Positions 13,191-64,000 of a stretch of DNA of 64,000 bases are shown here, in pieces; position 1 is the first letter of the stretch; each line of letters begins with the position of its first letter. The notes under the pieces were generated by a model. That model had not been told where the DNA came from, made no database searches, and saw only the letters and a program-made list of their open reading frames with translations. The position numbers and the translations under genes were made by a program. The DNA comes from Mytilus galloprovincialis (lineage: Eukaryota; Mollusca; Bivalvia; Mytilida; Mytilidae), in the NCBI RefSeq assembly GCF_965363235.1, contig NC_134839.1, positions 96,243,743 through 96,307,742 of the forward strand. The letters are read 5' to 3'.

Positions 13191-13369
13191 TTTTTTTTTT
13201 ATATCAGAGGAGAAGATTTTTGTAAAAGCTATTGGACGAAGGACGCCAAGTGATGAGAAAAGCTCACTTGGCCAAATGGCCCAGGTGAGCTTAAAGGGAA
13301 GGAAAGTTTTACGAGTGAAATACTGTTTTTTTCGTAAGCCTCCAAAGATCTAGTCATTCCGTAGGTTTG

Positions 13370-16452: not shown

Positions 16453-16649
16453 ATTATGTTTAAAATGTCATTTCAATTGTCAAATGGTAGCTTATAGTAC
16501 ATTGATTAAAAAAATATATGTTTTCTTTTCATTTTTTTTTTTAAATAAGGGAGATAATTTGTTACTTCCGATACTATTTGAATATTTACTTGACACTGAT
16601 TCCAAAAATATCTGATTCTATGTACATTTATTTTAATAAGGTATGAAAA

Positions 16650-17530: not shown

Positions 17531-17837
17531 GGAAAGATCTAAATATACAAAATTATTTCAATAGTTTACTATGACCTTTCTGTATTGAAGATAGATAAAG
17601 ATTCTACCACTGCATCGAGTGTGATACGATATTTATCCACTCAAGACAGAGCGTTTTAGATATTAAAAAATTAACTGTCGAGAGTGGATAAATAGCGTTT
17701 TACACAAGATTTGGTGATGGAATCTGTTTCTCTAATGATTTTTAAACAACATGCAGACAAATTCAATACTTTTTTCAAATGATCTGCAAAAAGATGCGTT
17801 CTTTCTATGTGACGTCATCAGGCATGGTCTCATTTTT

Positions 17838-25763: not shown

Positions 25764-26856
25764 TTATCCGAGTGTGTTCAGGGAGTTTCCGGTAGCGTTG
25801 GTGACGTCCAAAAGGAGCAAGAAACCAAACAATGTAAGAAGACAAAAAAATATGTATAAAAAATGTTCAATATGTATTGTCTTCGAAAACAAATTTTCAT
25901 CTATGTTTATCGATATCTATAAAATGATTAACGAATGATAGAAGAATTCTAAAGGCGATGGCTTATTGATAAGTGGCTATTCTTCAATTGAAAGATAAAG
26001 GCAATATTTCACAAAATTTACAAAGATCAACCAACAAAAGCCGCAAGATGACCTCTTAATGTGTTGATGATTTAGGATGTCTATTCCAAAGATGAATAGT
26101 CATGTTCTTTACACCTTCAAGAACACGAGCAACAAGTATGTGTATGTGTCAATCGGTTTAGTATTGTAGGCTATATCTTTGGCCTTGTCGAAGAAGTTTT
26201 TCTGTGGAAATCCAAATTATCCACCACTTGTCCCATCCATTCAATGTAATTGCCTTTGAAATGTTTTATTGTGAACTGTTTTTCGTCATACAAATTGTAC
26301 AAAACATTATTATTTTCTTATATGCACAAGAAACACGATATTTTTTTTTCTCAAAATAAATTTACTCTTAAATGAAACAATTTTTGTAAATAAAGAATGT
26401 TCCTATTTTGTGTGTATATAACATTTATTATTGATTTACTTGTTATAATTATTTAAGTTCAACTTTTCGCAAAATATTATATCGCTGCAATCTCGAATAA
26501 CTTAGGTACGTTTAATGGATAAAGTACCAACGAGTATAATACATATATAGGCAGTGATCGACATGCCATCCCAAGATCTTTCCTATCGACACATGTTGGC
26601 ATGCTACGTGAGATTTAAGAGTGTAACTAGTTAATATTTAAATATGCTTACAGTAGTTAAGAAGTTTGGCTCCTTTGAGTTGAGCTGTGGCAGCGTTTCC
26701 ATAGTTGTACAGTCTTCTCTGTTGTGTGTAGGCATTAAGTTGATTCTGGTAGTAAGCTGGGTATCCTGACTGGTATCCGGATTGGTATCCGTATTGCTGG
26801 GCCATGACGAAAGCAACAAGGCATGGGAGCAGGATCAGGATGATAGACTTGTTCAT
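25764..26856 (-). CDS. Small secreted Tyr/Gly/Gln-rich protein, copy 2 (splice acceptor altered)
   Basis: Paralogue of the 9.1-9.6 kb gene with the same two-exon plan: join 26,652-26,856 and 25,764-25,831, 90 residues if spliced at the homologous site. The signal peptide is nearly identical, then QQYGYQSGYQSGYPAYY, and exon 2 gives the hydrophobic Leu run, NATGNSL and stop. The donor ACT/GTAAGC is good. At the position of copy 1's TTTCAG acceptor this copy has TTACAT (AT in place of AG at 25,832-25,833). No other AG lies close upstream, and none lies in the coding part of exon 2. Retaining the intron would give a 72-residue protein without the hydrophobic tail. The exon 2 frame is otherwise intact, so the change is recent, allelic, or bypassed by a non-AG acceptor. 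The GTAAGT donor directly after the stop is conserved with copy 1. Confidence 0.7.
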
Positions 26857-27401
26857 TTTGACGAGTTTGAGTACTTGTTCTGGCTAAATGTGACACAAAA
26901 AGGTTAAATTAGTTATCAAGTATATTCAATTTACACAAATGGGCTAGACCGTGCTGTACTACAACGGAAAATAAAAGAAATTCTAAAAAGATGCATATTC
27001 ATGGGTAATATTAAACATTCCTCAGTATAGCTGTTACTCGTAAAAAGAAATCGGTGCAATTATATGTGGATTAACTACTATATAAAAACTGCTGATATAT
27101 GCTTGATCGAGAAACTTAACTTAATAATAAATTGCAATTTCGAAAACACAATAAGAGATAATATTTTGTATTTCTCCATAGGTTTAACTGATGTATTTGT
27201 GTCTTTTAGATAAAGCTGATGAACATTGTTGACATTCTTGCTCTTTTTAGAATATAACATTGTCCCATACAAGTACAAAATAGACGTCTCTTTCTTTTGT
27301 ATGAAATTTTATAGTACATATTGATAACACATAAATAATGATAAAAAAATCTATTATACCATAATTTTGTAACTTATTTAACAGCTAATCTACGACCTTA
27401 C

Positions 27402-28584: not shown

Positions 28585-28667
28585 AGTTCAGCAATATAAA
28601 ACAGTCATGTACATTTGTATCAGAATGGTTTAAAGTCAACAGTGGTCTTAAACAAGGATGTCCATAA
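28585..28667 (+). pseudogene. LINE reverse-transcriptase fragment, upstream half
   Basis: The plus strand translates to a reverse-transcriptase segment ending EWFKVNSGLKQGCP, the conserved block that normally runs straight on into LSP-x-LF. The frame stops at 28,667, exactly where the inverted CAGTCCCAC arm begins. The continuation (LSPTLF) is found on the same strand at 45,967, so the two are the halves of one old LINE split by a 17.3-kb insertion. Confidence 0.7.
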
Positions 28668-29558
28668 AGCCCCAGTCCCACAAGACCATGATCGCACCAC
28701 GCTCACCGCGATCTAAAATAAATTCGGATCGTGGTGAGGTCGCGATATGAGCGGCATGAACATTTTCGTTGCTTTCACGATGCTGCTACGTCCTCATTAT
28801 GCTTCTACAACGACCCCGCTACGATTATACCACGTTCTCACCGCGATTCTTCTGCGACCTCACTACGCTTATCAAGATCTTTCTACGCTCTTCACGTTCT
28901 CACTACGACCATACCATGAGTTATCCGATTGCAACACGATCTTACCACGCTTCTACTGCGATTATAGCACGTTCTTCTATTTCTGATTAATACGTAGATT
29001 TCTCGGAAACAATACAGTCATGCCATTAAAATCTATTAGAAGATTTGGGCGTGGTGGTAGGGAATGTTGTAGAGGCAAAGGGAACTAAGTAACGAATCCT
29101 GATCAAGCAGAGATGTCGGACCGACCAATCCAACCTAAATAACAACCTATTGCTGGTCCATAAAGCTCAAATGACGATATTTTAGTGAACGATAGCAGAG
29201 ATGACACAGATGTGTCAATAGATATAGAAAGATGTGGTATGAGTGCCATTGTGATAACTCTCCATCCAAGTAACAATTTATACATGTAAACAATTATAGG
29301 CCAAGGTACGGCCTTCAACACGGAGCCTAGCTCACACCGAACAGCAAGCTATAAAGGGCCCACAAAATTACTAGTGTAAAACCATTTAAACGGGAAAACC
29401 AATGGTCTAATCTATATAAAAAAGAGAAGCATGGTTGAGCCGTTAGAGCAAATGGATAATTACATACAGACAAACAAAATGTAGGGAGCTTTCAATCTCC
29501 GGCGCAGAGATCACATATCCGTTCCGTTCAATACTACGTAACACTACACTCAATATGA
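28668..29558 (+). repeat. Left inverted arm of the helicase element
   Basis: The word-iterated part is 28,668-28,985 (ACTACGACC, CTACGCTCTTCACGTTC and relatives). It is followed by about 500 bases of other DNA, including an R1 copy, and then by 29,493-29,558, a copy of the helicase gene's 5' sequence. There the translation ILRNTTLNM parallels MLRNTTLNM in the gene. A possible donor GAAG/GTATAA follows at about 29,587. Frames of 62-79 residues at 28,731-28,990 are word by-products. Confidence 0.65.
29195..29425 (-). repeat. R1 repeat inside the left arm
   Basis: Minus-strand R1 copy (GATGTGGTATGAGTGCCATT to GGTCTAATCTATATAAA). A closely similar copy lies at 52,620-52,835. Its presence explains much of the length difference between the two arms of the helicase element. 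Confidence 0.65.
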
Positions 29559-29579
29559 AAAGGGATCATAAGAAGATAA

Positions 29580-30224
29580 AATGAAGGTATAAGTATGTTA
29601 TTACAAGTTTGTTATGAAGCAAATTGTAAGATTATTATTATTTTTTGAATCAGAAGTTTTGAGAAACATCAGTTTGTGCTAAGGATTATTAAATTGATTT
29701 CTGCTATGATTTATTGTTCATTGCTATTTTTAAAAAAATTGGCCAAAATGCATGAAATTATTTTTTTGGGTGCAGGTGAACTGTTATGAGAACTTTTTTT
29801 ATGGTAACAAAAGGATTTTAAGATTACAATTACTTAAACTAAAACAATAAAGTAATATTAATGTATTGAAATGAAAACAAAAATCTTATCATTGGAATTT
29901 TATTTCACTCAAACTATACATAAATAGATTGTTTGTAACCTATTAAATCTGTGCACTGAATGGTTAAAGCATAAATATCTCCAAGAAATGAACTTTTATC
30001 TTTATTTATTTGATATTTAAAAAGTTAATAAAATTTTGAATTGATTGTAGTTTTTTATTACATTGTCTCATAATATTATGATTATATGATGTACTTAAAT
30101 GCTTTGTGTATCACTTGAAAATAGAATAAAATTTGTATATGAAAAAAATATTTTTTTAATCCTATTCAAAAATTTTGAAATTAGGATTGGAATGGTGGTT
30201 GAAGTTTGAAGGGTTATTGCCTAT
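29580..30224. other. AT-rich 3' flank of the helicase gene
   Basis: No coding sequence. Several minus-strand AATAAA signals occur (for example 29,899-29,904 and 30,001-30,006), suitable for ending the helicase transcript. Confidence 0.45.
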
Positions 30225-33200
30225 TTACAATTCTATTCTCAACATCTCACATTCAATACAGGAACATTTTGGTTTACAGTTGTAACAGCAGATATGACCT
30301 TTACATCTGTTTTTTTCAAAGCCACACTGCCGTAGTAGGTATTCGCGAATACAACCCTTTTCCCTACAAAAACCAATAATATCAGGCTTGATATCAACTA
30401 CATTAGCAGCAATATCCCTATTGCTGTAATAAAGGACAGCTTTGGATGCAATCCCTGAACGATCAGCACGCCCAATCTCTTGGACATAATCGGACAGTGA
30501 TCTTGGTGGACGTGCATGGATGACTCTCATAATTGATTGAGAATTAAACTCCATACCAACAACTGATGTGCAAAACACAAGTTTTATCCTTGGGTTTACA
30601 CAAGCCAACTCTTTAATTATATAATTTTTTACACTGTCATCCTGACCACTGCAAAGAACACCGTATACAGATGATTCAAGTGTAGGTTTCTTGAATATGT
30701 GTTTGCAGTAGGCAGCTGCATTGTCTATGTACTGTAATGGCATAAATAACAAAGTAACTGGAAAAGTTTCCCTATTTTCAAACAGATTGTCACAAATTGG
30801 CCTATATATATTTTCATAGGCCTCATAGATATCAAGGGATGCCTCTTTAAGTTTAATCTCCAGGTAAATGTTTTCCCTATCAGGACTTTCCCGAATAACT
30901 TTTGGATTTTTCATCCCTATGGAACTGGTTACTGTCCTCCCTTCCTGTTTTGTGACAGTGGCACTAAGTCCCAATCTTGGTACTCCTGGAAAAAATCCTG
31001 GAAGCTCTTTCAGGTGATCAAAAGCTTTCCGGAATGATTTCCCCCTATTCATTAAAAAAAGTAATGATCATGCATTTTGATAATAACTATTTAATAAATA
31101 AAGTTAAATACACCACCACCAAAGAAAAGGGATATAAGCAATATGAAATTATTTTTTCCAATAAAACTCTGATTTTATTAAATATGATGTTGAAATTTGT
31201 GTTCTGTATTTGTTATATTTTTAGTTAGCTACATGAAATAAATTTCAAAGAAAATCACTGAATCTAATAATCCAAAAATGAATAATATCTATTATATTTT
31301 AAAAACAATACTGGTCACAGATAATTGGAAAAAATGCATTCACAGTGGAATGTTAATAGCTGAAATAATATACATTGTTTGTCCGCAGTTGGAATTGAAC
31401 CAACATACAGCAAAGTGTATTACCCTATAGATACAGACTTCTATATAATGTATGTTGTTAGTAAGGGTGAAATGAAATGTTAATAAAAAATTAAGATAAA
31501 AGCATTAATTACTAAATGTTAACAAAAAGCTTAAAAAAAACAATTAAAAGCTTATACTAGCTGCATTATAGAAGTTCACAGTGAATGAAAACAGGAAATT
31601 AAACCAGAAGCTAAAATGCAGATATGCACTGAAAATAAATTAATAAAAAATTGGTCACTTAAGATCAATTTTACTTATTGTTAAGTTCAATAAATGTTTT
31701 GCTTCATGTTGCAGATAAATTCCATTAGGCCAACTGTAAGGAGTTTTGTTAGAAGTAATAAATATACAAAAACATATACATTACTAGTAAATCTTAACAT
31801 TAGAAATGGAAATACATACCTTGCTTTCTCTTTCATACTTACATTATCTGTTTAAAACATTTCAAACAGTATCAGTAAAATCTGATAGAAATTCATGTCA
31901 AAATGTGAACTTCAAATCAATGGTTAAATCAAATCAATGGTTAAATAAAAAACAAAACAACAAAATATTATTGAGGTTATATAAGAAATATTGATTTTTA
32001 AAATTGGAAAAAATTAAAAATGCAAGACCTTGAGATCAAGTTACAAATTTGATAAGAAAGGTGATAAGCCAGACTTTACTTTCAAAGAAATGGCCAATGC
32101 TTGATAAAATATATAAATTATGTTCATTATTAACCAATATACGGGGTAACGCACAACCAGGACAAAATCTTAAAGAATTACAATAAAATTGTTTTATAAA
32201 GTGTAATAGATGTCCATTAAGTTCACTTAAAAAGTATGGATTGTTATCAGTATTTATTCATATATTCAATACATTTTGCTATTGTCCAACAGAAAAAAGT
32301 TGTAAAACTGAATCTGAAATTAAAATACAAAGAAAGCTGTAACGTACCAATCTGCAACTTTATGACATTCGTCAATAAAAATTGCTTTCACTGAAGATTT
32401 GAAACTACAAGATAAGATAAGATAAGATATTTTTATTTCCAATTATGGGCCCCAAAGGGCATAAACATTACAACATCAATAATTTTTTTATAATACAATA
32501 CAAACAATGAGATAAATAAAAAAAAAAAAAGTTAAACGAGAACTATTTAAGTTCTTAAAGAATACGTAGATAAAGAATCTATAGTATGTTGGTTTTTTTT
32601 AATACTAATGCATTTTATTACAAGTGTGGTTGATATAGATAACAAACAAGCAGCCCAAAAAGAAAAAAAAAAAAAAAAAGAAAAATAGATATCCACATAT
32701 GTATAGTACACAAAAAGTTGGATCAATTAAATATATAATAATTAGCCAAAAAGAAAGTAGAAATTAAACATGTCCATGACTCATCCTGTGTCAGCAGCAA
32801 ATAGGAAAGCATTATGGTTTCCTAAAGGCAGCTGACACCAGGGGACGATACCTTATGGGCCATAGGCATGTAAAATGTGTGTAAATGTCTCTTTCCTACC
32901 TGTATCAAAAGCAAACAAGGAAGCATCATAGGTAACTTGAATGCAGTTGATACCAGGGGACGATGCCTCAAGGATATAAGAGAACATTTGAATAAATAAT
33001 ATATCTTAACAATTATTTTTTTTTTTTTTAATCGGCTAGTATGTTTGTGATATTCAGATGAATATAATTTTCTATGTCCAATCAAATGTATATACACACA
33101 TAGATTTCCTTTAACTAATCTTCACTAAGGAAGATGTTTGTATATAAAATTACATATTATTTTAAGTAACTCAACATTTTCTACACTAAATAACCAGATA

Positions 33201-36200
33201 ATTTTGCTTTGACTGTTCATATGATTAAAATAAGAATTATATTGTGCAATACTAGCTAACATACAATTTCTATCATCCTCAAATTTGTTACAATCAAATA
33301 GAAAATGAGCCTCATCTTCGACAGTATTGGAAGAACATTTATTACATATTCTGTTAATTCGGGGAATACCCTGATATCTACCTAATTCTATTTGTAATCT
33401 ATGAGAAGATACACGTAATTTAGTAAAACTTCTTCTAAGTTCAAAATTCTTGATCAATGTTAGATATTTTTCAAAACCAAAATTTGTTTTATATAAAAGG
33501 TAGGTTTTCAGTTTACTGTCTGAAAATTTATCTATTTGTTTTTTCCAACAGCTAATAAACAATATTGATAGCTTGGTTTGTATATATTTCTTAAATTTGT
33601 ATAAGGATTCTCAAAATGGAGCACTTATGGCATTTGTATAGTCAATACCAAGTATTTTAAAAACAACATTTATTGAACCATACCATGATGTTATATTCAT
33701 GTGATGTAGTGTCTTTGATTGTGTATATGCCTCTTTTAATAGAGGAAAATTATTACCTAAATTCTCTAATCTATACCAGTACAATAACATTCCTTTTATA
33801 ATATTAAAATATATTGGAAATCTTCCAAGTTCAGATAACACTGCAGCATTTGTTGTTTTCTTGTGTACCCCAAGTATAAATTTACAAAATTTTATATGAA
33901 GTTTCTCACAGGGTAAACCTGAATATAATTTTTCAAAAGATATATCTTCCTTCTTACATTTAGAGGAAAGAGAATTAAACATCCCCCATATTTCGCTACC
34001 ATATAATAAAATAGGTTTTACAGTGTGGTCAAAAACATGAATACTTGTTTTTACATCAGGATTAAGTGATAAAAGATCTTTCCTTAATTTGAAATGAGCT
34101 TTCAGGGATTTTTTGTATAGTTCATTTTGAGCATAACTGAATGAACCAGATGAGCTTAAATATAAACCTAGGTATTTGTATTTTGAAACACATTCCAGAT
34201 TTATATTCTGAAATGTGAATATCTGTTTTACATGTCTGCCTGCCTTGTTGAAAATCAGCACCTTTGTCTTATTAGTATTCACATTGAGACACCAATCTTT
34301 GCAAAATTTATCAAGCATTCCCAGCTTTTCTCGTAGTCCTTCAGCTGATGTAGATAATAAAACAATATCATCAGCATACATTAAACAATGTAGATCTTTG
34401 TCATTGACATTAACTGGGTCTCTAGTATCTGACAAATATCTGGGCAAATCATTTATGAATATCTTGAATAAATTCGGACTGAGGTTGTCACCTTGTTTGA
34501 CTCCAATATCTAATGGGAAAAAATCACTTACTTGATTTTGAATTTTGACACATGATTTGCTAATTTCATACATACTATTAATAATGTTATAAAAATAAGA
34601 CCCAGCCCCAATATCTAGTAGTTTAATCTTGATCCCTGTATGTATAACAGTATCAAAAGCCTTCTGAAAATCAACAAAACAGGCAAACAGTCTACCTTCT
34701 TTTGAATTACAGTATTTGTTAATAAGACAGTTTAAAATAAACATATGATCTGCAGTTCTAGCTTTCCTTGTGAATCCAATTTGACTATCATGTATAATAT
34801 TATGTTCCTGAAGAAATTTGTCCAGTCTTAGACTTAATATTCTATTAAAAAGCTTTCCAATTGCACTTGTTATTGTTATTCCTCTATAATTGTTAGGGTC
34901 ACTTGTATCGTTGCTTTTAAAAATTGGTGTAATATAACCTTCAGCCCAAGATGTTGGGTATATACCTGAAGACAGACAAGTATTAAACATCTGTTGAAAA
35001 CTTTTTAAAAGGAAAGTCTGTCCATTCTTTATCATATTATTACTAATGTTATCCAAGCCTGATGATTTATTGCATTTTAAGTGTGAAATGGCTTTGGATA
35101 TTTCAGACTCAGTGATAAAGGAGTCCAACTCGTTGAAACATTTTGAGTTTTCTAACTGTTTCAGTTTTTCACATAGCTCTGTATATCTACTTTGAAATTC
35201 ACCTTTCAGTTGTGACAACTTTTGGAAATGTGATATCAAAGTTGATGGTTGTACTCCACATTTTTTTTTAGTTTCATTTTTTTCCTGTAGTTCATTAATT
35301 AAGTTCCAATACAGTTTTGGATTCTCTTCGTGCAAGGAGTCCAGTTGACTAATCAATGATTGTTTGTATTGTTTGTATTTATATTTCCTTAGTTTGGAGT
35401 ATTCACGATTCAGTTTATAAAAGTGATTTTTGATAATTGGATCATATGGAAATCTTGAATAAATTTTTCCATAATTAAGCAAGTTAGTTCGAGCTTGTTG
35501 TAAACTTGCGTCAAACCACTTTTTGTTTTTTTGTTTGTTTGTGTGTTTTTTTAAAGGTCGTTTAAGTGATAGATTTGCTGCTGATAAAAAGATGTTTGAA
35601 AATTTTGATGATGCGTCATCTACTGATGTCTGAGTAAATTGAATTGTGCTGTTGTTGAATTCTAGTATGTAGTTTTGTAGTGTATCTGAAGAAAGTGTTT
35701 CTTGAAATTTTATTGCTGAACAGTCAGTCCAGATATAATTAGGTGTCATATTTTTCAACTGGATTGGAATATCATTTTCTCCAGGAACACAATATTTTGC
35801 AGATAATTCCCACTCAAGTTTACAATGACAATCAGATAATGTGGGAATAAATCTGGATACTTTAAAATACAGTACATTTTCAAGAATTTCTTCCGACACA
35901 GCAACATAATCAACCACACTTGCACCATTGGGGGTATAGCAAGTAAAATTACCAAATGTATCACCAAGAACTCTGCCATTTAAAATTCTTATTTGTTTAC
36001 TAATGCAAAAATCCAAAACTTCTTTGCCTCTTTGATCAATTTTTTGGTCTCGACTTTTTCTTGTCATAATGTTTTTGTCAGTAGGGTATGTATCAAAAAT
36101 TGGAGTAAATTTTGAATCATCGTTTACTATAAAGTCATTTTCAGAGCCTATTCTGGCATTAAAATCTCCACATAACAAAATTTCACCCATTTTTTTATAC

Positions 36201-39200
36201 TGAAAGATATCTTTTTCTATGCATTCAAAAACATCAGAAGAGAGTTCTTGGGTATATTTAGACGTAACAGGGGGGTTGTACAGTACACAAATAAATAGGT
36301 CACTTTTAAATCCAAAAAAGGATTTTTCTAATTTAATCCATTGATAATCTGGATTACTGTTAATCAATATTTTGACATGAGGTTTAACGTGACTTTTCTG
36401 TAGAATTGCTATACCCCCAAAATGACGGTTATTATTTGATAATTTTCTACATATTGGATGATAATGAAATTTGCCAATATTGTGTATTTGGGAATTATAT
36501 CCCACATGAGTTTCGACTAAAAAAACAATGTCGTAATTCTCTATATGTTTCAGAAAAAGGGGATCCTCTGCTTTATTCATGCCCTTTGAAAATAAGCCAC
36601 CTATATTCCAATAACCAAATTTTACAGATGATTGGTTTGATTTTGGCATTTTGGTTGATACAATTAAATCTGGTATAAATAATAGAATAGATTTTCTATC
36701 TATAAAAAAAAAAAAATAATAAAAATTTGTCTCTAAATAAAAGGAAGAGACAACAAGGAAAATATTCAGAAATGTAAATATTTGAAATAAGTAGATTTAT
36801 TTAGAGGATAGTTTTTACAATGGTTTTCTAAATACAATTAGTCTATGATATAATGACAGATAATTTCTTTTCTATGTATCCTCTTTTAACTGAATAACTA
36901 TTAAACTGATTTGGGTTGAATAACCTGATATCCTGGGTTAATTCATGATCAAAAGTATGATTCAAATGTGAAAACTAAAAATAAAAATGAATAAAATAAA
37001 ATAAAAAAGGCGAACTTTTATACCTAGCAGAGGTTACATATTTATGACCATGTAATAGTGTGACTTCTTCACATAATGGCTGTTTCATTTGAAAAATCTA
37101 TTCAAATGAGAATATGAATTTATCAGCCCAAAAAAAAAGAAGAAATATATAAAGTTGTACATGTATATATAAATTATATGTAAATGACTTTAAACATGTT
37201 AAAGGAAGTCAACATAATGATATGGTAATATGTATAATATTAAAAAGCAAGTTATTCATGATGACCTCTGCCACGTCCACGTCCACGTCCTCTTGTGTTG
37301 CGCGATTTGGATCTACCTCTTGAATTTGGCATGGGAATGTTTAAGGCAGTGTGTATTCCACGCTTTAAGTTTGCCGATAGCTGAGACACGCCAGAGTCAG
37401 AGAGATGAAATTTATCTTGACTTAGTAGCTCTGCAATTGGGTTTCCATTTCGCAACATATTGCCATGATCAACAAGTAGAACATCTTTATTGTCATCATA
37501 TATTTGTTTCAACAAGGCATTTATGATTTGTCCATTTGTGTTAAAAATTACACTGTCGAGTCGAGGAGTAGTAAGAGAGATGATGCAACCACTATTTTGC
37601 CATTTTTGAAGTGCAAGCTTGACAATATCTTGTATTTCTTCTACACATTGCTGTGGTGATTTTATTTTCAAATCATTCGTCAGGGAATGAAACACTACTA
37701 GATTTGGAATTATATCCGATATCTCCAAAATAGCTTGTTTAGTTTCTTCTAAATTGAAAGCAGTAACCTTATTGGTTGTAAATGATGGCGATAGCTTCTC
37801 TGCATTGATACGTTTGGTATTGGATGTACCAATTAAAATAATTGTTGGTTTGTTATCAATGTCAAGTTTAGATTTGTCAATATATTTCGTGTCTGCATTA
37901 ACAAGATGAAAATCTTCAAATCGAGAAATCATTTGGGAGCGGAGAGAGATATTTTCTTCTTGTAATTTCTCCAAGTGTTGAGTATGTCGTTTTAGAGTAT
38001 CAGTTAGTTTGTCAATTTCTTCATTTTTGGTTTGTAGGCTTACCGATAGAAAGTCGATCTCAGAGTTTGAAGTAGTTAATACCTTTTTCATTTCTGCTCT
38101 AGTCTCCTCCAGTATTTGATTGTGACATTTCATTTGATCTTCATGTTGAGCTTTAATTAACATAATATTGCTTTGCTCGTGTTTTAATTTAACTTCCAAA
38201 GTCTGTTTTTCTGTTTGTACGGTTTTATATTTTAATTGTAATGTTGATATCTCATTGTCGTCTTTTCTACCTTTTCCCAAGACTAGAACATCATCATTGC
38301 ATTGTTTAACAGCAGTTAATACTTTGCTGAAGTTTTCATTGTGACTGTGTTCTATTTTAGCCAGCGTGTCAACTAAATTTAATTCAAGCCTTTGAAAATC
38401 ATCTTTTTGAGGTTGATCTTCTTGTACTAGTACTGATTTTAACCCAGTCTGGGAGTCAGGTAATACACAAGTGACCTTGTCAACAGGGCATAATTCATTA
38501 ATGTGTGTATTGTTATTGTCATCATGACATTCGTGTGAAATACATGTATTAGTAGGACTGGTTTGTGATATGTTTGTAAGAACTTTATCAAGAATATCTT
38601 TCAGAATTGGAAAATGAATATCCACAAACTCATAATAATGACTGCCTTGTACTCTTATTGTTCCTGTTGTGACAAAAAATGTAATATTAAATTGAAGTTC
38701 CCCCTTTTTTAATACTTCAATCATCACAGAATTTCCACTGTTGCTTCGGTTTTCCCATATTTTGGGTTCGTCATACCATTCAATATCATAATCAGGTTCC
38801 TTTCCAAGATTGTCATAATAGTAAATATCTAGTGTTTTTATCCATGGTTGGATTCTGTCAAGGTTTGTGTAGAATGTGATGATTTTAGCATGTTCATCAT
38901 ACAAGTTTGGGTCAATTTGCTCGAAAAGGCTTAATTTTGCTTTACCAGTCCTCTTGTTTTGCTTTGATGGGAGAGATGAAAGAGGATAGTCATTAATGGT
39001 TTTGTACATCGATAGGTCAATTTTCAATTTGCCTAAATCTACCATGATGACCGGCTTGTAGTCAACACGTGTTTATATAGTTATATGTGCACACACGTAA
39101 ATCAGCGTAAATAAATGTTTGTAAATATAATTGATCGATCGGAAGTTATCTTAGTGTTTCTTCCTCTCTGATATAAATATTTGGTGTATTTTAAATGATG

Positions 39201-42200
39201 GAAACTGTTAAAAAACCCAGGATTCTCAGAATATTTTACCAGTGAATTTTTCCACCAACCGCCATTAATCAGGGGCGATAATCGGGTTGCACTAATGACA
39301 ATATTCTATTGGTGATTGGATATTGTAATTCACTACTGTATGACATTCTATTGGTGAAGGGATATATTGACTTCATACTGAAGGTGTGCCTATATTGGCA
39401 GAAAATATACAGATACAGAATACAGATTGCCCGGATAGTGACAGGACGGTTGACCGGACGAGATATAAATAGTTATAACTATTTTGTTATTCGGTAGATT
39501 TGTTTAATATTTGTAGACCTTAAAGATATTAACATTTTTTTTATGAAAATCAAATAAAAAAAGTGAAAAATAATATTTTTGAGTAAATAAAGTTGACCGG
39601 ACGGTATTCACACTCGCCGTTATACACTATACATATACTAATCAACAAAAGAAACGATACAAGTCTTTTTTTCAAATTTAAGATAAAGATTTCCGTTTAT
39701 AGGACCAATATAGAAGGTAGTAATACTTAATCATTATGGAAATATAAATCCGTTTAAAAAAAATATTTTTTTGCTTTCGTGATGTTTTTTGACGATTTTT
39801 TTTGTTTTTTACAAAATTTACATAAAACGACAATTTGAAAAACAGAAGTTTCAACTAATGATGCCAACCTCTCATTTAAAGGTAAAGACAATGTTTGCCA
39901 TCAATTTGTTTTTAAAAATCATACAGTTTCTTCGTTTATTTGTTTACCAAAGTTCGGCCCCACGAGAAATCGTTAAAATGTATACATTATCAACTGATTT
40001 ACCATAGACAGTATGTGTAAAGTGATATTCAAAAAGCGGTCACAATCTTAAAACTAATCCGAAATGTTCCAAATTTACTGTGTGTTGTTTTCATATCCAA
40101 AGCATTGATTTGAGACAAAAATAAAATTTTTTTTGCATTTTTTGAGATTTCAAAAAAACACTTTTTTTCCCAAAAATTTGAAAAAACAATATTTCAACCC
40201 ATTAGTTACAACATGAACCACAACTTGATTAGCATATTGAATATTTTTAAACAAAGTTGAAATTTTATTTAGTACTTAGAAAATTACGTGTCGATTTTTT
40301 ATTCAACTTTCCGCAAAACTTATTTGCACCCTATAGTCGTTTACAGGGAATTTAGATACTTTCCGACAAGTTTTGATTTTCATTATCACATGTGCATACA
40401 TTGCAAATGAAAGCTTTTTAAAATAGTGTATTTCATTTTGTTTTATATTTAATACTTTTTGATAAATTTTATTTCAAAGTCGTGTATCGTTTCTTTTGTT
40501 GACTAGTATATATTCAACTCCTCGACAACATGTGTTAATATCTCTTTTGTTTTACAATATTTGTCCAAGAAATTCAGGAACCTGTGCGATTTATAAATAA
40601 ATTATACGAAAATATAAATTTATAGTAAAAAAAAATGTTTTTTTCTGCTGAAAAAGTTGACCGGACGGTATTCACGTTCGCCGATATATGCTTTAAATAT
40701 ATTGAAATGATCAATACAAGTGTTAATATCTTTTTTGTTTTACAATATTCGTCCATGAAATTCAGGAATCTATGAGATTAATAAATATAACATACGAAAA
40801 TATAAACTTCATGATAAACAAAAATGTTTTTCTTCAAAATAAAGTTGACCGGACTGAATTCACATTTGTCGATGTATGCCGTTTAACGATCTTTCACAGA
40901 GACATATGATACAAGAGATTCGCAACTCTAATAGAGTCTATAGCTCTCTGGTTTTAAGTATATTAACGGGATCGACACAAGTGTTAAAAACTCTTTTTTT
41001 CATTAAGCCCAGAAATCTTGTCAAGTTTTGCTTTCTTCACGCCGGAAGGTGGACTGTCAGTAAGAAGTATCTGAGGATCTTGACTGCCATTATCAGCATA
41101 CCTCAATCTTAGTAGATTTCGGTGTTGATACAGCCTTCTGTTTTGAAGGTGTTTTTAACTTTGCTGGTGTTTTCAACTTGGTTGATGTCTTTAACTTGAC
41201 TGGTGTTTTGAGTGTTTTTGGAAACTGAGGTTCCAAGGGAAAGGACACTCAAATAATTGTGCCTCCTAAGAGTCCGAGAAACTATTGGGGTGCACGTTTT
41301 TATGTATTTTTTTACAGAGCTTCTGGGGGTCTTGAACGGCAGCCAGACCCCTCACCTTATGGCGAATATATTTTGCCTAACTTTTAAAAGAACCTATAGT
41401 TAAGCCCCTGGATACAGTAGAAACGAATTCTATAGTAATCAAACTTCGAATGCTTTCGAAGAGAAACTGAAAGACTATAAAGTGATTTTTTTATGACTGA
41501 ATTAAAATATAGTGACAGACTAGTTAGTGACATTGCAGTATTACACTAAAGGAACTTTGTGTTCGATGTCCGTGTAAGGTTACTCCATATTATGTTCCTT
41601 TATTTTCTATTATAAAGGACTCTGAACACGACTTAATACAAGTTTACTCCTTCAATGTTAAAGGTCATATTGCAATACATTAATTGTTCTTGATTAGATA
41701 CCAGGAAATTGGTGGTCTCACTTTAATTTAATCCATGTCAGCTATCTAGTTTTATCGGAGAAAGTCAGTTTTGCATGTTTTGTATTCTTTTCAATTCACT
41801 GTAATCTTTGATTGGATTCTAATTGCCAACTGATTAAATAAGTTAATTCAATTACAGGTATTTGATGTCTAAGGTGTGAAAACGTAAATGACATGATTAT
41901 TGGCTTGATTGGTGATAACGACAGGTGGCAAAATTAGATAGTAATCTAATTAAATAATAAATATTTTAAATATCAGGTCCTTTAGTGTGCTGGTGAACTT
42001 ACTCAAGTCAACATGTTGAGCTCAAAGTTTTTATTATAAAGTATATATTTTTGTATAATATATTTAATAATCTCACAGATTCCTTAATTTCATCAAGCAT
42101 GGAGAGATATTTAACATGTGTCGATCAGCTCAATATATTTAAAGCATCAATATCATCAAATGTGAATTCCGTCCGGTCAACTTATTTTGAGGAAAAACAT

Positions 42201-43895
42201 TTTTTTTTTACTATAAAAAATATATATTCGTATAACATATTTATAAATCTCCAAAATTCCTTAATTTCATTGACAAATATGGAAAAATAAAAGAGATATT
42301 AACACTTGTTGTCGATCATTTCAAAATATTTAAAGCATATATATCGGCGAATGTGAATTCCGTCCGGTCAACTTTTTTTGAAGAAAAACATTCTTATTTA
42401 CTATAAAAATTATATTTTCATATCAAGTACTTATTGATCTCGTAGATTTCTTAGTTTCGTGTAAAAATATTGAAAAACAAATAAGATGTTAACACTTTTT
42501 TTTTATAAGTTCAATATAATTAATGCGTACATCGTCGAATGTGAACACCGTCCGGTCAACTTTTTTTGGCAGAAAAACATTTTTGTTTATCATGAAGTTT
42601 GTATTTTCGTATGTTATATTTATTAATCTCATAGATTCCTGAATTTCATGGACGAATATTGTAAAACAAAAAAGATATTAACACTTGTGTTGATCATTTC
42701 AATATATTTAAAGCATATATCGGCGAACGTGAATACCGTCCGGTCAACTTTTTCAGCAGAAAAAAACATTTTTTTTACTATAAATTTATATTGTCGTATC
42801 CAATATTCATTATTCTCACAGATTCCTGAATTTTATGGAGAAATATTGTAAAACAAAAGAGATATTAACACTTGTTGTCGAGGAGTTGAATATATGTATA
42901 GCGTATAACGGCGAGTGTGAATACCGTCCGGTCAACTTTATTTACTCAAAAATATTATTTTTCACTTTTTTAATTTGATTTTCATAAAAAATATTTGAAT
43001 ATCTTTAAGGTCTACAAATATTAAACAAATCTACCGAAGAACAAAAAAGTTATGACTATTTATATCTCGTCCGGTCAACCGTCCTGTCACTATCCGGGCA
43101 ATCGTCCTGTCATTAGTGCTTCCCGCGATAATCATATAAGAAATATAAAGTAAGAAAAACATGGAATTCTACTATTGACTGTTTTGGCCATTTGAATGTA
43201 TTAATGCAAACATAATGTTGTTCTAAATTCATAAGATCAAAATTCTCATTAACAACAAAATTTATCATTATTTGGTAGCAAAATTTAACAAGAATTTTCT
43301 GTAAGTGGTTTTCAGAAAAAAAATATGAAAAACTAAACTCTAAGGGGACTGCTTGATTTTAACCAGACTGCGAAACTAACATTCCATTTTTTTAATTGCA
43401 TTATTGCTTTAAAGAACAATTTACATAGGAAAGAAGTGATGTATATGGCAATAATCATTTTTTTTTAATTTCTGGATTAATTTTTCTATACATAATTAAT
43501 ACATGCATATAAATAGTTTAATACCTAGAGGAATCCAAAAGATCATTTCCTTCTGAAGTGCAGAAGAAGGCTTCTGGATGAGCAAATATTAGGTTACAAT
43601 TGGATATATCTGAAGTATCTATATCACACTTAAGATCTTGGATATTTTCCTCATTCCCTGCAGTCAACAGTCTTCCCTGTGGAATAAAGGAGCAGTTAAA
43701 CTATGTAAAACTACCTGCCAAGAATTATAAGATACTGAAACAGAAGAAATTAAATATAGCCAACAATCAAGTGTCATGATTTATGAATCTAGATTTTATC
43801 AAATTTTATGCCTCATTCAATGAATCAGAAACTACTTCTTGACAAAACCAAATACTTTTGAACATACATGTACATGTACCTGTAAGATTTAGACC

Positions 43896-43957
<62 letters not shown>

Positions 43958-45387
43958 CCTATAGTTGACAACTTGATATATTAAGTACAGTATCTGAGTA
44001 AAAAAAAACTTCAAATTAACAGGTGAGCCATGCATGAGCAGGTAACTGGTACCAGACAGACATGAATATCTTAAAGTCTTCAAATATCAGTTAACTTTTC
44101 TTTGGTATGTTAGTAAAACTGTTTCGTCCCGGCCAAGGATACTCATCAGGTGACTTAAGGCTACCACTACAGTCATCTGTTACATGTAACTAATTATAAT
44201 AAATAAATGGTAAATCACAAATGGGATTAGTCAGTGATCATCTCTTTGCACTCATATTCTTAAATATTTCACTTAGTGATCTTTAAGTCCTGAAAAAAAA
44301 TACTGATTTTGACATGCATGTGTAAAGAGGGGGAATCGGAGGGGTCTTGATCCCAAATTCTAGGCTATAAATTATGAAATCCTCTATCCCAAATCCTGGG
44401 CTTAAAAATATGAAATCCTCAATCCCGAAAGTGTCAATTTCGAAATCTTGAGCTGAAAAAAAACATGATCCCCAAGTCCTGAAAAAGACCAACCCTCTAT
44501 CTGAGATTACTATAACACAGTGTTATAGTAATCTCAGCCTCTATAAACATCTTATAAATAACCTGGTATTTGAATAAAAATGTCATGCTTCAGTAATTCA
44601 TGTAATGTACCCTACCCACAAAAGGCGGACCCAGCCACCCTAACATAAAAAAAAATCCGCATATATGACAAAGCAAAAAAATGGCCTCATGACTACAGGC
44701 ACTTGTTTTTGTGCCTGTTGTTTCTGTCATATAATATCTATAAATTTTATCAACTGTTTAATTCATGTAATATTGTAATATTACAAAAACTATGTAAATT
44801 TATCAAAGTTATAAATGTGAAAGTCAGTCCTCCAAGTTAATTTCATTGTATTGTTCACACACTATTATTGAATTTACTATCCCACATTGACAGAAACAAG
44901 TGCCTGTGCTCATGACCAATTAAGACTACCCCGGCGCATATTTTGTTTTGTTTTGTGGCGCCGTGTACCCAAGCAACTGATCAAAGTATCTAAGAATAAA
45001 AGTAGATTTTTACCCTAGTATTTAATATACAACATTTCAGTGCTGAGTTTTCAATTGTTTAACTTGCTCTTCTTGGATGACACTGAGAGGTGAAAAAACA
45101 ATCACAGTGCCGTCCAAGATTAGCGGGGCCAGTTGGCATATGAGGCTCTTTCCGTAACCAGTTGGCAAAATCGCTACTGTTTCAAGTGTTCCTTTTGTGA
45201 TTTCGTCCAACACTTCTATTTGTTTCAGTTTCAGAATTATATTAGGATGACCAAGTCCAAGGCGTCTGAGCGGTATTTCGTAATCCGCCATTTTTACAAA
45301 TAGCCTTTTCACCTCCTTAAGTCCTTCCGCTTGGCCGCCATGAGGAAATTTCCTCATGGAGTCAGCCAATCGTATGGCAGAGGTCAT
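30225..45387 (-). CDS. RecQ-like SF2 DNA helicase, four exons
   Basis: Minus-strand join of 45,064-45,387, 43,525-43,676, 32,348-32,404 and 30,225-31,044, about 450 residues. Exon 1 has the RecQ Q-like motif (LKLKQIEVLDEI), Walker A (ILPTGYGKS) and motif Ia (VFSPLSV). Exon 2 has IFAHPEAF. Exon 3 has the DECH box (VKAIFIDECHKVADW). Exon 4 has GLSATVTK, VFCTSVVGMEFN, arginine-finger motif YVQEIGRADR and a Cys-rich zinc-binding tail (CCYNC-x3-C-x-C). It should be an ATP-dependent 3'-5' DNA helicase; RecQ relatives unwind forks and recombination intermediates. Phases agree at the exon 2-3 and 3-4 joins. Exon 1 is uncertain at both ends: the start may be 45,411, 45,387 or 45,291; the donor CAA/GTTAAA at 45,064 keeps the frame but leaves the protein 10-12 residues short of relatives, whereas reading on meets TGA at 45,037-45,039. 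The copy may be disabled. It lies wholly inside the 17.3-kb element. Confidence 0.75.
31381..31438 (-). tRNA. tRNA-like 58-base fold (pseudogene or organelle-type fragment)
   Basis: On the minus strand this folds with a 7-bp acceptor stem (GTCTGTA/TGCGGAC, two G-T pairs), a 5-bp anticodon stem (ATACA/TGTAT) with a 6-base loop CTTTGC, and a perfect 5-bp T stem (GTTGG/CCAAC) with loop TTCAATT. The D arm is only 11 bases without a good stem and there is no variable loop. It sits in the helicase intron 31,045-32,347. It may be a tRNA remnant, a mitochondrial tRNA-like insertion or the head of a SINE. No A box is convincing. Confidence 0.3.
33125..36649 (-). CDS. LINE ORF2: endonuclease and reverse transcriptase
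   Basis: A 1,012-residue frame (36,649-33,611), then one in-frame TGA (33,611-33,613) and a further 160 or so open codons in the same frame to 33,125. The apurinic-type endonuclease is at residues 1-280: GYWNIGG, FLVETH, LCGDFNARIG near residue 159, and a final SDCHC where relatives have SDH. The reverse transcriptase at about 490-850 has FKSNDTSDPNNYRGI, GFTRKARTADH, FVDFQKAFDTV, GVKQGDNLSPNLF and YADDIVLL at about residue 757. After the TGA comes a C-x2-C-x9-H-x4-C zinc-knuckle-like motif. One stop separates this copy from a complete ORF2, so it is either just inactivated or read through. Confidence 0.88.
37252..39045 (-). CDS. LINE ORF1: coiled coil plus SGNH esterase
   Basis: An intact 597-residue frame on the minus strand, ending about 600 bases before ORF2. 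Residues 1-150 are unrecognised. About 200-370 form a coiled coil (LQLKYKTVQTEKQTLEVKLK and following heptads). Residues 400-570 are an SGNH-hydrolase (esterase) domain, with block I IILIGTSNTKRI (Ser in GTSN), a TND block and the DKFH block with catalytic Asp and His near residue 545. The C-terminus is a basic run of RG repeats. Such ORF1 proteins bind the element's RNA and are typical of CR1/L2-type LINEs. Confidence 0.85.
   Translation of the reverse strand: MVDLGKLKIDLSMYKTINDYPLSSLPSKQNKRTGKAKLSLFEQIDPNLYDEHAKIITFYTNLDRIQPWIKTLDIYYYDNLGKEPDYDIEWYDEPKIWENRSNSGNSVMIEVLKKGELQFNITFFVTTGTIRVQGSHYYEFVDIHFPILKDILDKVLTNISQTSPTNTCISHECHDDNNNTHINELCPVDKVTCVLPDSQTGLKSVLVQEDQPQKDDFQRLELNLVDTLAKIEHSHNENFSKVLTAVKQCNDDVLVLGKGRKDDNEISTLQLKYKTVQTEKQTLEVKLKHEQSNIMLIKAQHEDQMKCHNQILEETRAEMKKVLTTSNSEIDFLSVSLQTKNEEIDKLTDTLKRHTQHLEKLQEENISLRSQMISRFEDFHLVNADTKYIDKSKLDIDNKPTIILIGTSNTKRINAEKLSPSFTTNKVTAFNLEETKQAILEISDIIPNLVVFHSLTNDLKIKSPQQCVEEIQDIVKLALQKWQNSGCIISLTTPRLDSVIFNTNGQIINALLKQIYDDNKDVLLVDHGNMLRNGNPIAELLSQDKFHLSDSGVSQLSANLKRGIHTALNIPMPNSRGRSKSRNTRGRGRGRGRGHHE
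39284..43124. mobile_element. Mutator-like fold-back element with 190-bp tandem units in its arms
   Basis: 3,841 bp. The ends are inverted GGGTTGCACTAATGACA and GGGAAGCACTAATGACA, and the flanks are a perfect 9-bp duplication GCGATAATC (39,275-39,283 and 43,125-43,133). Each arm is a row of diverged units of about 190 bases, each containing GTTGACCGGACGG, a TTCACATTCGCCGATATATG stretch and an ACACTTGTG..TTAATATCT stretch. The motif occurs four times in the left arm and six times, inverted, in the right arm. The 1.2-kb centre (about 40,870-42,050) has no recognisable transposase. The 9-bp duplication, terminal G run and long inverted arms fit a MULE. It lies in the helicase intron next to the LINE. 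Confidence 0.8.
39637..40507. mobile_element. 871-bp inverted-end insertion nested in the fold-back arm
   Basis: The right arm of the host element reads ACGCTATACATATATTCAAC without a break. The left arm is interrupted after ACATAT by 871 bp whose ends are perfect inverted TCAACAAAAGAAACGATAC, preceded by ACTA(A/G). Flanks are consistent with a TA or ATAT target duplication, as in Tc1/mariner-type miniature elements. The interior is AT-rich with no transposase. The intact copy in the other arm serves as an in-sequence empty site. Confidence 0.8.
43899..43956. repeat. (TA)n microsatellite
   Basis: About 29 uninterrupted TA dinucleotides in the helicase intron between exons 1 and 2. Confidence 0.95.
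44300..44495. repeat. Word repeat D, AATCC(C)GAAATCC type, diverged copy
   Basis: Iterations of ATCCCAAAT / TCCCGAAAG / AAATCCT words, starting near AAGAGGGGGAATCGGAGGGG and ending AAGACCAACCCTCT, so the edges are roughly inverted. The family matches 57,165-57,375. It lies in the helicase gene's first intron. Confidence 0.55.
44501..44537. repeat. Perfect 37-bp palindrome
   Basis: CTGAGATTACTATAACAC, a single A, then the exact complement: 18-bp arms with no mismatch. It abuts the end of word repeat D. Confidence 0.9.
44690..44925. repeat. Inverted pair with CAGGCACTTG arms
   Basis: CATGACTACAGGCACTTG at the left and AAGTGCCTGTGCTCATG at the right, with CTGTCA also mirrored just inside. The left arm itself holds a small hairpin (CAGGCAC/GTGCCTG). 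It shares arms with the inverted repeat at 13,370-13,457. Confidence 0.55.
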
Positions 45388-45965
45388 ATTAAGTGTAGTA
45401 TTGCGGAGCATGTAAGGAACGGATATGATCTCTGCGCCGGAGATTGGGGAACTTTTCTTATATAATTTATGTGAAAATGACAATGAGAATGATGGTCGTA
45501 GTGTGAACGTAGTCAGGTCGTAAGAAGAGCGTGATGAGGACGGCATGGCGTGCTAGAATCGTACTATGGTTGTGAACAGCGTGGTATAGTCGTAGTGGAA
45601 GCGTAGTTTGGTCGCGGTGAGAACGTGATGGTCGTAGTGAGGTCGTAAAAACGTCGCTGTGAGATCGAAGCGCAGTCTCTCCGAATAGAATCACGCTTTC
45701 GCTACGCTCTCGCTACGATGGTGCAGCGACTTTTGCGATTTTGTGCGCTCTCACTACGCTTCTACTGCGACCTGACTTCGCCACGACCGCACCACGATAG
45801 TTTTGAACATGTTCAAAGTTGGCCACGCTCATCACGATCTTGAAGACCTCACCACGACCGTGATACGACCTTACTGCGATATACACGATCCGATCGTACT
45901 ACGATCATTAAAATTAGCATTTTTTTCACAGATCGTAGTGCGATCGTGGCCTAGTGGGACTGCGG
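45384..45965 (-). promoter_or_regulatory. Right inverted arm of the helicase element, holding the helicase 5' region
   Basis: The word-iterated arm runs from the terminal CAGTCCCAC (complement, at 45,950-45,963) to about 45,480, and includes the palindromic core GTTTTGAACATGTTCAAAG at 45,809-45,827. Element A has almost the same core at about 3738-3756. The last 100 bases lead directly into the helicase frame, so transcription of the helicase must start in or next to this arm. No clear TATA box stands out apart from TTATATAA near 45,460. Confidence 0.6.
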
Positions 45966-45966
45966 T

Positions 45967-46165
45967 ATTATCTCCTACGCTATTTAACTCTATATAAATG
46001 ACCTAGCTTCGATGAAATCAGATGCATGTGGTATCGATATAAAAGAAGAAAAAGGTTGCATATACTTTATTTTAAAGATAATTATGGGCATTCTAACAAA
46101 GGACGAAAAAAAAATACAAACTATGTTAAACGCATTAGATACATTGTGTGAAGATGTCAGATGGC
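45967..46165 (+). pseudogene. LINE reverse-transcriptase fragment, downstream half
   Basis: The plus strand resumes the reverse-transcriptase block cut at 28,667: LSPTLFN, then, after small indels, NDLASMKSDACGIDIKEEK, a damaged YADD region and LTKDEKKIQTMLNALDTLCED. It is degraded by several small length changes, so it is much older than the LINE at 32.4-39.3 kb and of a different family. Confidence 0.7.
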
Positions 46166-46510
46166 ACCCTCTGTTTACAAGTCATATGTTTTATTTTAAT
46201 ATGGAAATGATTTCATAGTATACTATAATAGTTATACTTGTTTTAGTTTTAAGTGAATTTTAAGTGTTACTCATAAGGTCTTTTCAAAAGATTAGTGCTT
46301 CCAATTGTTTAATATAAGCGGCTGGTATTTGTGGTTACAATATGTTTTTCTTTCATTAATGCCATACATTATAGAGCTGGCAGATTTTTCTTGTAGATGG
46401 TAAATAAACTCTAAATGCTGAAGGATATCAAGTGGATACATATCTTCAAAACATTGGTCAAACACCAATAACCCCTTAGAGGGACGTCAATGCAAACTTA
46501 AGAACAACGT

Positions 46511-48994: not shown

Positions 48995-49050
48995 AGGTAT
49001 AGGCAGACGGAGAGTTGTCTCATTGGCACTCATATCACATCTTCTTATAC
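48995..49050 (+). repeat. R1 repeat, 3' end fragment
   Basis: Only the terminal R1 segment is present (GAGAGTTGTCTCATTGGCAC, then CATATCACATCTTCTTATAC). Frames of 63-84 residues over it are by-products. Confidence 0.55.
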
Positions 49051-49239
49051 CTATAACATTAACGATAAAAGTTTCTGTAATTTATTCATTAGCCAACGAG
49101 GCGTTGGCTCTTTTAGGGTCCTTTAGTGCTTTATATTTAATAAAACACACGGTGTCATCAGATAGTAATGTCTGTGAAAATCTTACGGAAAATTAAAATT
49201 GAATCAAACAATGATAACAACTATGCTACATAAATAATT

Positions 49240-49470: not shown

Positions 49471-50189
49471 TAAAGTACAAATCCGTGATAAACTGATTGA
49501 TTTTTACTGAGTGTTCAGTGGCAAATATTTCCTGTATATTCAAGTGGAAGCGCATTTATTAAGCCTTATATCAATAATGAGGCTCTTCAAAATGGAAATG
49601 AATAGATAGCTAGATATTTTTACTGACTGTCCTTGAAAAAAGGCACTATGTTAGGTAAGGCATATTATAATATGTCATTAACGGTCCATAACAGCTAATA
49701 TAAGACAAAAGACATGGCACTCTATAAACATGTGGCGCCTCTCAGCATGAATCTGACTACTAGACAGGCAATTCAAAGAAACATATTGCTCCATGTTACA
49801 TATAAAAAAATACTAGTAATAAGTTTTTTCCTGCAAAAAAAATAACAACACAAAGAGAGGATAATACTATGAATCCCAAATTCCATTGTCTGCATAAAGG
49901 AATATTTCATTTATTTGGGAGCTCATGTACTTGAATGAATGTCGTAGGTTCGCTATATTTGATATCAATTCTCAGCTGTAATTGATACATGCTTTGCAAA
50001 TTAAATGTACCGCTGTTTTGTATGATATACTGACCAAATAAGACTCGCATCAATGAATGTTTACATGTAACCATTCATACAGTTTGTAAATAAAAATTAA
50101 GAGTGGTGCGATTGCTGATGAGACAATCATCATACAGAACTCAAAAGTTCTCGTTTGTTGATGTGGTTCATAATGGTTTCTCGTTTCTT
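49471..50189. other. Spacer, no gene seen
   Basis: AT-rich sequence without a recognisable gene. An R1-like fragment (GTGGTGCGATTGCTGATGAG) lies at about 50,103. Confidence 0.35.
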
Positions 50190-50395
50190 GTTTTTTTTTT
50201 ATATATAGATAAGAACGTTGTTATTTTTCTTCTTTTGAATGGTTTTACACTAGTCCTTTTTGATGGCCCTTTATAGCTTGCTGTTGTGACCCCTTATTGA
50301 AGACCGTACTTTGACATATAATTGTTTACTTTTACAAATTGTGACTTGGATAGAGAGTTTTCTCTTTGATTATCATTCCACATCTTATATTATCT
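50190..50395 (+). repeat. R1 repeat, 3' half
   Basis: R1 copy from the TTTTTATATATAGATAAG stretch through GGCCCTTTATAGCTTGCTGT and GAAGACCGTACTTTGACATA to CATTCCACATCTTATATTAT. Confidence 0.6.
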
Positions 50396-51734: not shown

Positions 51735-52040
51735 CAGATAAGGGTGAAGGTTTGGTACCATTAAAATGTTTAAACCCGCTGCAACTGTTTGCACCTGTCC
51801 TAAGTCAGGAATCTGATGTTCAGTAGTTCATTTGGTTCTCGTTTTTTGTATAGATAAGACCGTTGGTTTTCCCGTTTGAATGTATTTTTTGGGGCCCTTT
51901 ATAGCTTGCTTTTCGGTGTGAGCAAAGGTTCCGTGTTGAAGACCGTACTTTGACCTATAATTGTTAACTATTATAAATTATGACTTGGATGGAGAGTTGT
52001 CTTATTGGCACCCATACCACATCTTCTTATATCTATATAA
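51735..52040 (+). repeat. R1 repeat
   Basis: Long R1 copy: AACCCGCTGCAACTGTTTGC, CTGTCCTAAGTCAGGAATCT, GGCCCTTTATAGCTTGC, GAAGACCGTACTTTGACCTA, and the end GAGAGTTGTCTTATTGGCAC. Confidence 0.65.
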
Positions 52041-52614: not shown

Positions 52615-52835
52615 TGATCATATAGATAAAGATAGATGTGGTATGAGTACCAATGATACAACTCTCCATCCAAGTCACATTTTATCAAAGTAAACCATTA
52701 TAGGTGAAGGTACGGTCTCCGGCACGGAGCATAGGCTCAAACCGAACAGAAAGCTATACAGAGCCCTAAAATACAAGTGTAAAACCATTCAAAAGGGAAA
52801 ACCAATTGTCTAATCTGTATAAAAAACCGAGATTA
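52615..52835 (-). repeat. R1 repeat, minus copy
   Basis: Reverse R1 copy (GATGTGGTATGAGTACCAAT to CCAATTGTCTAATCTGTATA), nearly the same stretch as the copy at 29,195-29,425. It lies 130 bases upstream of the receptor exon. Confidence 0.65.
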
Positions 52836-52979
52836 TTATGTATGTTAATATTCACTTCTCTTAAATTATTGGATATCTAAATATAACATATATGCACTGT
52901 ATTCCTACATGTGATATTTCATCAATCTATATGAAAAACGTTTTAACTTGTTTATTTTTTTTTTATGTTTCAGATAACC

Positions 52980-63838: not shown

Positions 63839-64000
63839 GTAAACTTGTAACGATAAATGTATGTAGGTAATAATGAAGTGAATAACGGTAATAGATTTTC
63901 TTAATATTGCAAAGGTTCATCAGAAGGAATTGAAAACTATGGTCATGTCTTTGAAACTGCTGCAAACCTATTAACTTCTTACATTCTTATAAAATCCCTT
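63839..64000 (+). other. Start of protease intron 4
   Basis: Begins with the donor CAAG/GTAAAC. No exon is seen before the window ends. Confidence 0.6.

Follow-up and report, generated by a model that had tools for sequence, protein, structure and literature searches.

The 64-kb stretch of DNA analysed here (the window), probably from a mussel, contains a LINE reverse-transcriptase fragment that is interrupted by a large insertion, hereafter the helicase element, whose two arms begin at 28,668 and 45,967 with a common inverted tip. The left half of the LINE fragment (28,587-28,664, + strand) is translated as SEWFKVNSGLKQGCP and ends in GLKQGCP, while the right half (45,968-46,176, +) runs from LSPTLFN to YINDL, with a frameshift between LSPTLFN and LYINDLAS. 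When both flanks are joined, with the fragment typed past the frameshift in the right half, they match the Pfam family RVT_1 across the junction (residues 13-86, E 1.9e-6), with a score of 28.2 bits that falls just below the cut-off of 29.6 bits. Neither half matches RVT_1 alone, the left half having just 26 residues; on their own, the right half returns one weak and unrelated Pfam family and the left half none. The fact that RVT_1 is matched only when the halves are joined supports a single insertion into one LINE copy, as the original prediction had proposed from the split reading frame.

The left flank ends in TAA (28,665-28,667) and the right flank begins with TTA (45,968-45,970), the leucine codon of GCP-LSP. 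This points to a TTA duplication in which one base has changed, a reading that restores the LINE frame. The right boundary, formerly placed at 45,965, has been moved to 45,967, which fits this duplication, imperfect and just 3 bp long as it is. Other duplications were also considered. With the boundaries shifted by up to 8 bases each way, TCC is the sole exact duplication of 3-10 bp and is taken as a chance match; no 9-10-bp duplication appears over the same shifts, and a TTAA duplication was searched for and is absent from the TAA/TTA flanks. By eye, a TA duplication suits the two short elements described below as well; TTA is preferred because TA would put the LINE out of frame at the helicase element.

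The arms and later insertions of the helicase element

The outer part of the left arm (28,668-28,995, +) carries the tip AGCCCCAGTCCCAC followed by an array of degenerate 11-bp units, YACYACGAYYT, and the outer part of the right arm (45,447-45,967, -) carries the tip TACCGCAGTCCCAC and 11-bp arrays in both orientations. The tip sequence CAGTCCCACnAGnCCAnGATCGCAC occurs at exactly two sites in the 64 kb, at 28,673 (+) and 45,962 (-), a count that remains unchanged when three mismatches are allowed and that compares with a mean of 0.00 in 100 shuffled sequences. Likewise, CAGTCCCAC has one site per strand in the whole window. The earlier observation of the same inverted sequence at both breaks is thus confirmed, with paired tips that are unique in the window. 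The similarity between the arms is not limited to their outermost bases. Their alignment scores 171, as compared with 79 +/- 9.6 (maximum 105) when one arm is shuffled 100 times by mononucleotides, and the inner ends of the left arm (29,493-29,558, +) and the right arm (45,384-45,446, -) match each other in inverted orientation with 85% identity, both by blastn and by alignment. This inner match indicates that the arms are long inverted repeats, more than tips alone. The helicase element therefore has the paired inverted termini around one insertion that define TIR DNA transposons.

Among lags of 5 to 35, lag 11 gives the strongest signal in each arm and lag 22 the next, with z-scores for these two lags of 4.9 and 4.2 in the left arm and 8.2 and 5.9 in the right arm (100 dinucleotide shuffles). 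The rank of lag 11 among the 31 lags was 10th, 5th, 12th, 19th and 28th in five stretches used for comparison. The repeat unit approximates YACYACGAYYT and is present in both orientations, its enrichment in the arms being partly circular since the consensus was derived from them. The iterated words originally noticed in the arms are accordingly arrays of a degenerate 11-bp unit.

Of the 17.3 kb between the tips, about 11 kb correspond to later insertions. The initial size estimate was thus inflated, and the element proper measures about 6 kb, a figure that depends on insertion limits set by eye. Two later insertions had been discounted before; the insertions found are a LINE, a second inverted-repeat element and a repeat-bearing one in the left arm. 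The last (28,996-29,490, outer limits approximate and by eye) has an interspersed-repeat core at about 29,218-29,431 that is found at five further places in the window by blastn and alignment. The six sites of this repeat of about 200 bp, which we take to be common in Mytilus, are 29,218-29,431, 52,622-52,826, 51,833-52,036, 50,189-50,386, 13,023-13,193 and 49,006-49,054, the last being a short piece. The inserted LINE (32,413-39,268, -, limits by eye) is nearly intact. Its ORF2 (33,125-36,796, -) encodes an endonuclease and a reverse transcriptase with one stop, its ORF1 (37,252-39,072, -) has a GDSL-lipase match below the Pfam cut-off, and an (AAGAT)n tail is present; a search for its target-site duplication returned nothing above 10 bases and nothing convincing. 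The inverted-repeat element of about 3.9 kb (39,270-43,130, outward extension by eye) has arms at 39,425-39,637 and 42,891-43,103 that are 96% identical, and it contains no ORF over 97 aa and no Pfam match.

The RecQ-type helicase gene

The gene of the helicase element lies on the minus strand and extends between the two inner arm ends. Exon 1 (45,040-45,291) encodes the ATP-binding motif TGYGKS, exon 2 (43,525-43,676) has GT-AG borders and joins exon 3 in frame, exon 3 (32,348-32,404) carries the DECH box, and exon 4 (30,225-31,044), with its splice sites, encodes the SAT motif, QEIGRADRSG, a cysteine cluster and the stop. At the domain level, exon 4 matches Pfam Helicase_C (2.9e-6) and WRN in the PDB (1.1e-13), and the exon 1 ORF matches Pfam DEAD at 4.3e-5, below the cut-off, a match that reaches 5.5e-14 with the spliced protein. 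The latter also matches the RecQ family model TIGR00614 with an E of 1.1e-46 and 159.6 bits, below the curated cut-off of 219.8 bits, and its PDB matches are WRN, RecQ, RECQ5 and BLM, with WRN chains at E 4e-30. These matches place the protein among the helicases with a RecQ-type SF2 core. With no other recognisable gene in the element, they bear out the earlier view of a RecQ-type helicase as its only recognisable gene. The C-terminal cysteine cluster, CIREYLLRQCGF..CCYNC, may resemble the RecQ zinc-binding domain; the last 70 residues have no match among PDB chains up to an E of 10.

Exons 2-4 are joined by GT-AG borders in frame and without a stop, but exon 1 runs directly after VKQLKTQH into an in-frame TGA (45,039-45,037). 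The only GT ahead of this TGA in the listed stretch lies at 45,063; its use would keep the frame and lose VKQLKTQ, which includes residues that align with WRN. The TGA, together with a splice site that costs these residues, suggests that the helicase copy may be damaged, and exon 1 may be broken in this copy.

A Pfam search in six frames over 28,660-32,410, 43,100-45,975 and 39,100-43,200 returned no transposase, with neither an Academ-type DDD/E nor a Harbinger transposase among the matches in this copy. The longest stretch free of stops, once the exons and both large insertions are set aside, has 87 codons. It is mainly the lack of longer ones that speaks for the absence of a transposase, as Pfam may lack models for some superfamilies. 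Scans of the window for tRNAs and for Rfam families (gathering threshold) gave 0 and 0 matches.

Further copies were sought in sequence collections that include no known mussel genome, and no second copy of the helicase element was found there; the termini and the helicase have thus been seen together once. The tip pattern gave 0 matches in viral_contigs, and in these searches the inner-arm 20-mer and the tips of the two short elements gave 0, 0 and 0. For exon 4, 5 pattern matches in viral_contigs and 61 in genome_contigs were obtained, 0 of which were confirmed by tblastn. A shortened tip had 3 matches in bacterial records of genome_contigs, judged to be chance on a rough estimate of about 2 (19 fixed bases, 257 Gb, both strands).

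The CpG content of the region is uneven. An observed/expected ratio below 0.5 is found in 18 of the 127 one-kb windows, and each of the 18 falls within the element, where they cover the helicase body and the inserted LINE. The strongly CpG-depleted spans are 29,501-37,000, 38,001-39,000 and 43,001-45,000. The ratio is 1.16 in the left arm, insertion included, and 1.57 in the right arm. Over the second insertion, eight one-kb windows start at 39,001-42,501, and in six of them the ratio exceeds 0.9. We read the depletion as a probable sign that a transcribed unit was methylated in the germ line over a long time, and composition could explain it as well.

Two further short elements with 11-bp arrays

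A scan of the window at the 11-bp period led to two short elements. The first (2,947-3,879) has the tip AAGCCTCGGTCACAC, the motif TTTTGAACATGCTCAAAA, 11-bp arrays, TTA on both sides and an outer inverted repeat of 52 bp at 94%. The second (13,490-14,472) has the tips AGCTGGGGTTACAC and TGCGGGGTTCACAC, 11-bp arrays and, again, TTA on both sides. Each has its strongest lag at 11, with z-scores (9.3 and 7.7, respectively) that are descriptive and not independent, given that the elements were picked by this period. Their unit sequences differ from those of the helicase element, the 11-bp phase being what they have in common. An exact TTA on both sides is thus present in two of the three elements, with one mismatch at the helicase element, and the short elements admit further 3-base duplications when their boundaries are left free (3 and 4 solutions).

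The link to the first short element appears at two places. The left tip of the helicase element agrees with the 15-base tip of this element in 12 of the 15 bases. Sites with up to 3 mismatches from that tip are expected 0.1 times (20 shuffles) and found twice outside the first short element; of these two, the one at 29,323 is not a tip. Even when up to 4 mismatches are allowed, the matches do not include the right helicase tip. Furthermore, the first short element and the right arm have a 28-base match with 24 identical bases (E 1.9e-4) around TTTTGAACATG. Its distance from the tip is 124-139 bp in the first short element; in the helicase element it is 148-163 bp, counted from the nominal tip, and the right arm motif TTTTGAACATGTTCAAA is found at about the same 148-163 bp. 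The left tip of the second short element differs at 4 positions, with 4.65 such sites expected by chance, so its link to the helicase element consists of architecture and TTA only. The two short elements are taken as putative non-autonomous relatives of the helicase element, by kind and not by family.

Comparison with known transposons and interpretation

Helicase genes have been reported in several groups of eukaryotic DNA transposons. The RecQ-bearing Academ elements and AcademH resemble the present case as DNA transposons of animals with a RecQ or helicase gene, according to PMC3627910 and PMC10045372. The latter source describes duplications of 9-10 bp for AcademH and of 3-4 bp for AcademX. 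In the Kolobok superfamily, KolobokH and Kolobok-1_CCri are alike in having a RecQ helicase as an accessory; RecQ is carried by fungal KolobokH, stated as found in fungi only, and by the Kolobok of a red alga (PMC9587614). The same source gives Kolobok its own transposase, classically TTAA duplications and 5'-RR..YY-3' ends, unlike the helicase element, whose left tip, AG, fits RR and whose right tip, read inwards, is TA. The bivalve-rich KolobokP group makes 3-5-bp duplications and has long direct repeats (PMC9587614), which are not seen here; in view of these duplications, TAA/TTA excludes only the classical form of Kolobok. With regard to fungi, the AcademH, KolobokH and Helitron helicases are named in PMC10799480 as a source of host genes. 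Since RecQ is reported in both Academ and Kolobok, a RecQ-bearing transposon is not new in kind. What distinguishes the present element from the RecQ transposons in print is the combination of no transposase in this copy, a TTA-type flank and 11-bp arms, and among the titles and abstract openings listed, neither a transposase-less RecQ transposon nor 11-bp arrays in bivalves appeared, which is a weak negative.

The flanks also invite comparison with other groups. A 3-bp TWA duplication is characteristic of PIF/Harbinger elements, and the TTA-type duplication of these and of Tourist-like MITEs may correspond to the exact TTA of the two short elements and the TAA/TTA of the helicase element. The helicase element differs in its lack of a Harbinger transposase; we know of no helicase in PIF/Harbinger, nor of 11-bp arrays as a typical feature of the group. 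Helitrons likewise carry a helicase, but of another class, and no Rep domain is found here, where the ends are paired and inverted and the duplication is short.

We regard the helicase element, somewhat more confidently than not, as an old copy, about 6 kb long, of a DNA transposon of the cut-and-paste type that entered a LINE, with a RecQ helicase as an accessory gene and a transposase supplied from elsewhere. The original claim of a DNA transposon with its own helicase is strengthened by the paired tips, the single insertion into the LINE and the two like elements with TTA, and it is qualified by the pairing of helicase and tips in one copy. The nearest competing account, that of an Academ-type transposon (of the AcademH lineage or a sister) left as a relic after the loss of its transposase, is tentative and rather doubtful. 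A RecQ helicase is listed for Academ in PMC3627910, and the title of a paper presents AcademH as a lineage that encodes a helicase and occurs in animals and fungi; against this, the 9- or 10-bp duplications described in PMC10045372 have no counterpart at the helicase element with the boundaries shifted by up to 8 bases each way, where the flanks are TAA/TTA (3 bp with one mismatch), and none of the Academ DDD/E transposase remains in the copy.

The helicase could also be mere cargo, that is, a host RecQ gene captured with its introns between inverted-repeat ends. Hosts use RecQ enzymes in repair, introns interrupt the gene, and its strongly CpG-depleted body between CpG-rich arms might be the trace of a methylated, transcribed unit that has been resident for a long time. 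Such a capture seems unlikely, however, with a protein so divergent that it falls below the RecQ model cut-off and a gene that fills the element from arm to arm; the inserted LINE is CpG-poor as well, so that the footprint is not special to the helicase gene, and two transposon superfamilies are reported, in the sources cited above, to have RecQ as an accessory gene. Least probable by far is that the arms are two separate short elements in opposite orientation which bracket a gene by chance. Array-bearing short elements are common here, with two others in the 64 kb, but the tip is missing from the inner end of either arm, as CAGTCCCAC occurs once per strand in the window, which argues against two small elements; moreover, the inner ends match in inverted orientation and the reverse-transcriptase frame is broken once.

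If the helicase element is a transposon with an accessory helicase, it would have inserted at a TTA within the LINE. Its ends would have been cut by a transposase encoded elsewhere, and the degenerate 11-bp units, each of about one helical turn, may serve as phased sites bound by transposition proteins. The single gene, a divergent RecQ-type helicase read inwards from the right arm, might have an accessory role, opening or processing the transposon ends or aiding replication restart at the gap. The helicase would then seem to belong to the transposon family, and not to this copy alone. Accessory helicases are found repeatedly in DNA transposons that are unrelated to each other, and their role in transposon movement is, to our knowledge, not settled. 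A more far-reaching and improbable version is a transposase-less family with a RecQ helicase only, whose 11-bp phased iteron arms are common to many short elements, in a two-part system where the helicase acts at the arrays and the cutting enzyme comes from another element. If true, a helicase-only element with gene-less, array-bearing sisters would put directly the question of whether the helicase acts on the ends.

Other features of the window include a further inverted-repeat element at 17,853-20,012 with arrays of 9-bp period (lag 9, z 11.0, over 17,401-20,000). Its exact 9-bp flanking duplication, CGTCACAAT, has a length reported for AcademH in PMC10045372. Very similar small secreted-looking proteins (QQYGYQSGYQSGYPAYY...) are encoded at 9,288-9,626 (-), with no Pfam match for this copy, and at about 26,660-26,860 (-), the second read by eye; they look like a local duplication. 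A rhodopsin-type 7TM receptor is encoded by an ORF at 52,947-53,903 (+; Pfam 7tm_1, E 1.7e-10) and a partial trypsin domain by an ORF at 63,508-63,870 (+; Pfam E 5e-16). A large inverted repeat with 447-nt arms at 83% and a spacing of 811 nt occupies 15,693-17,397.
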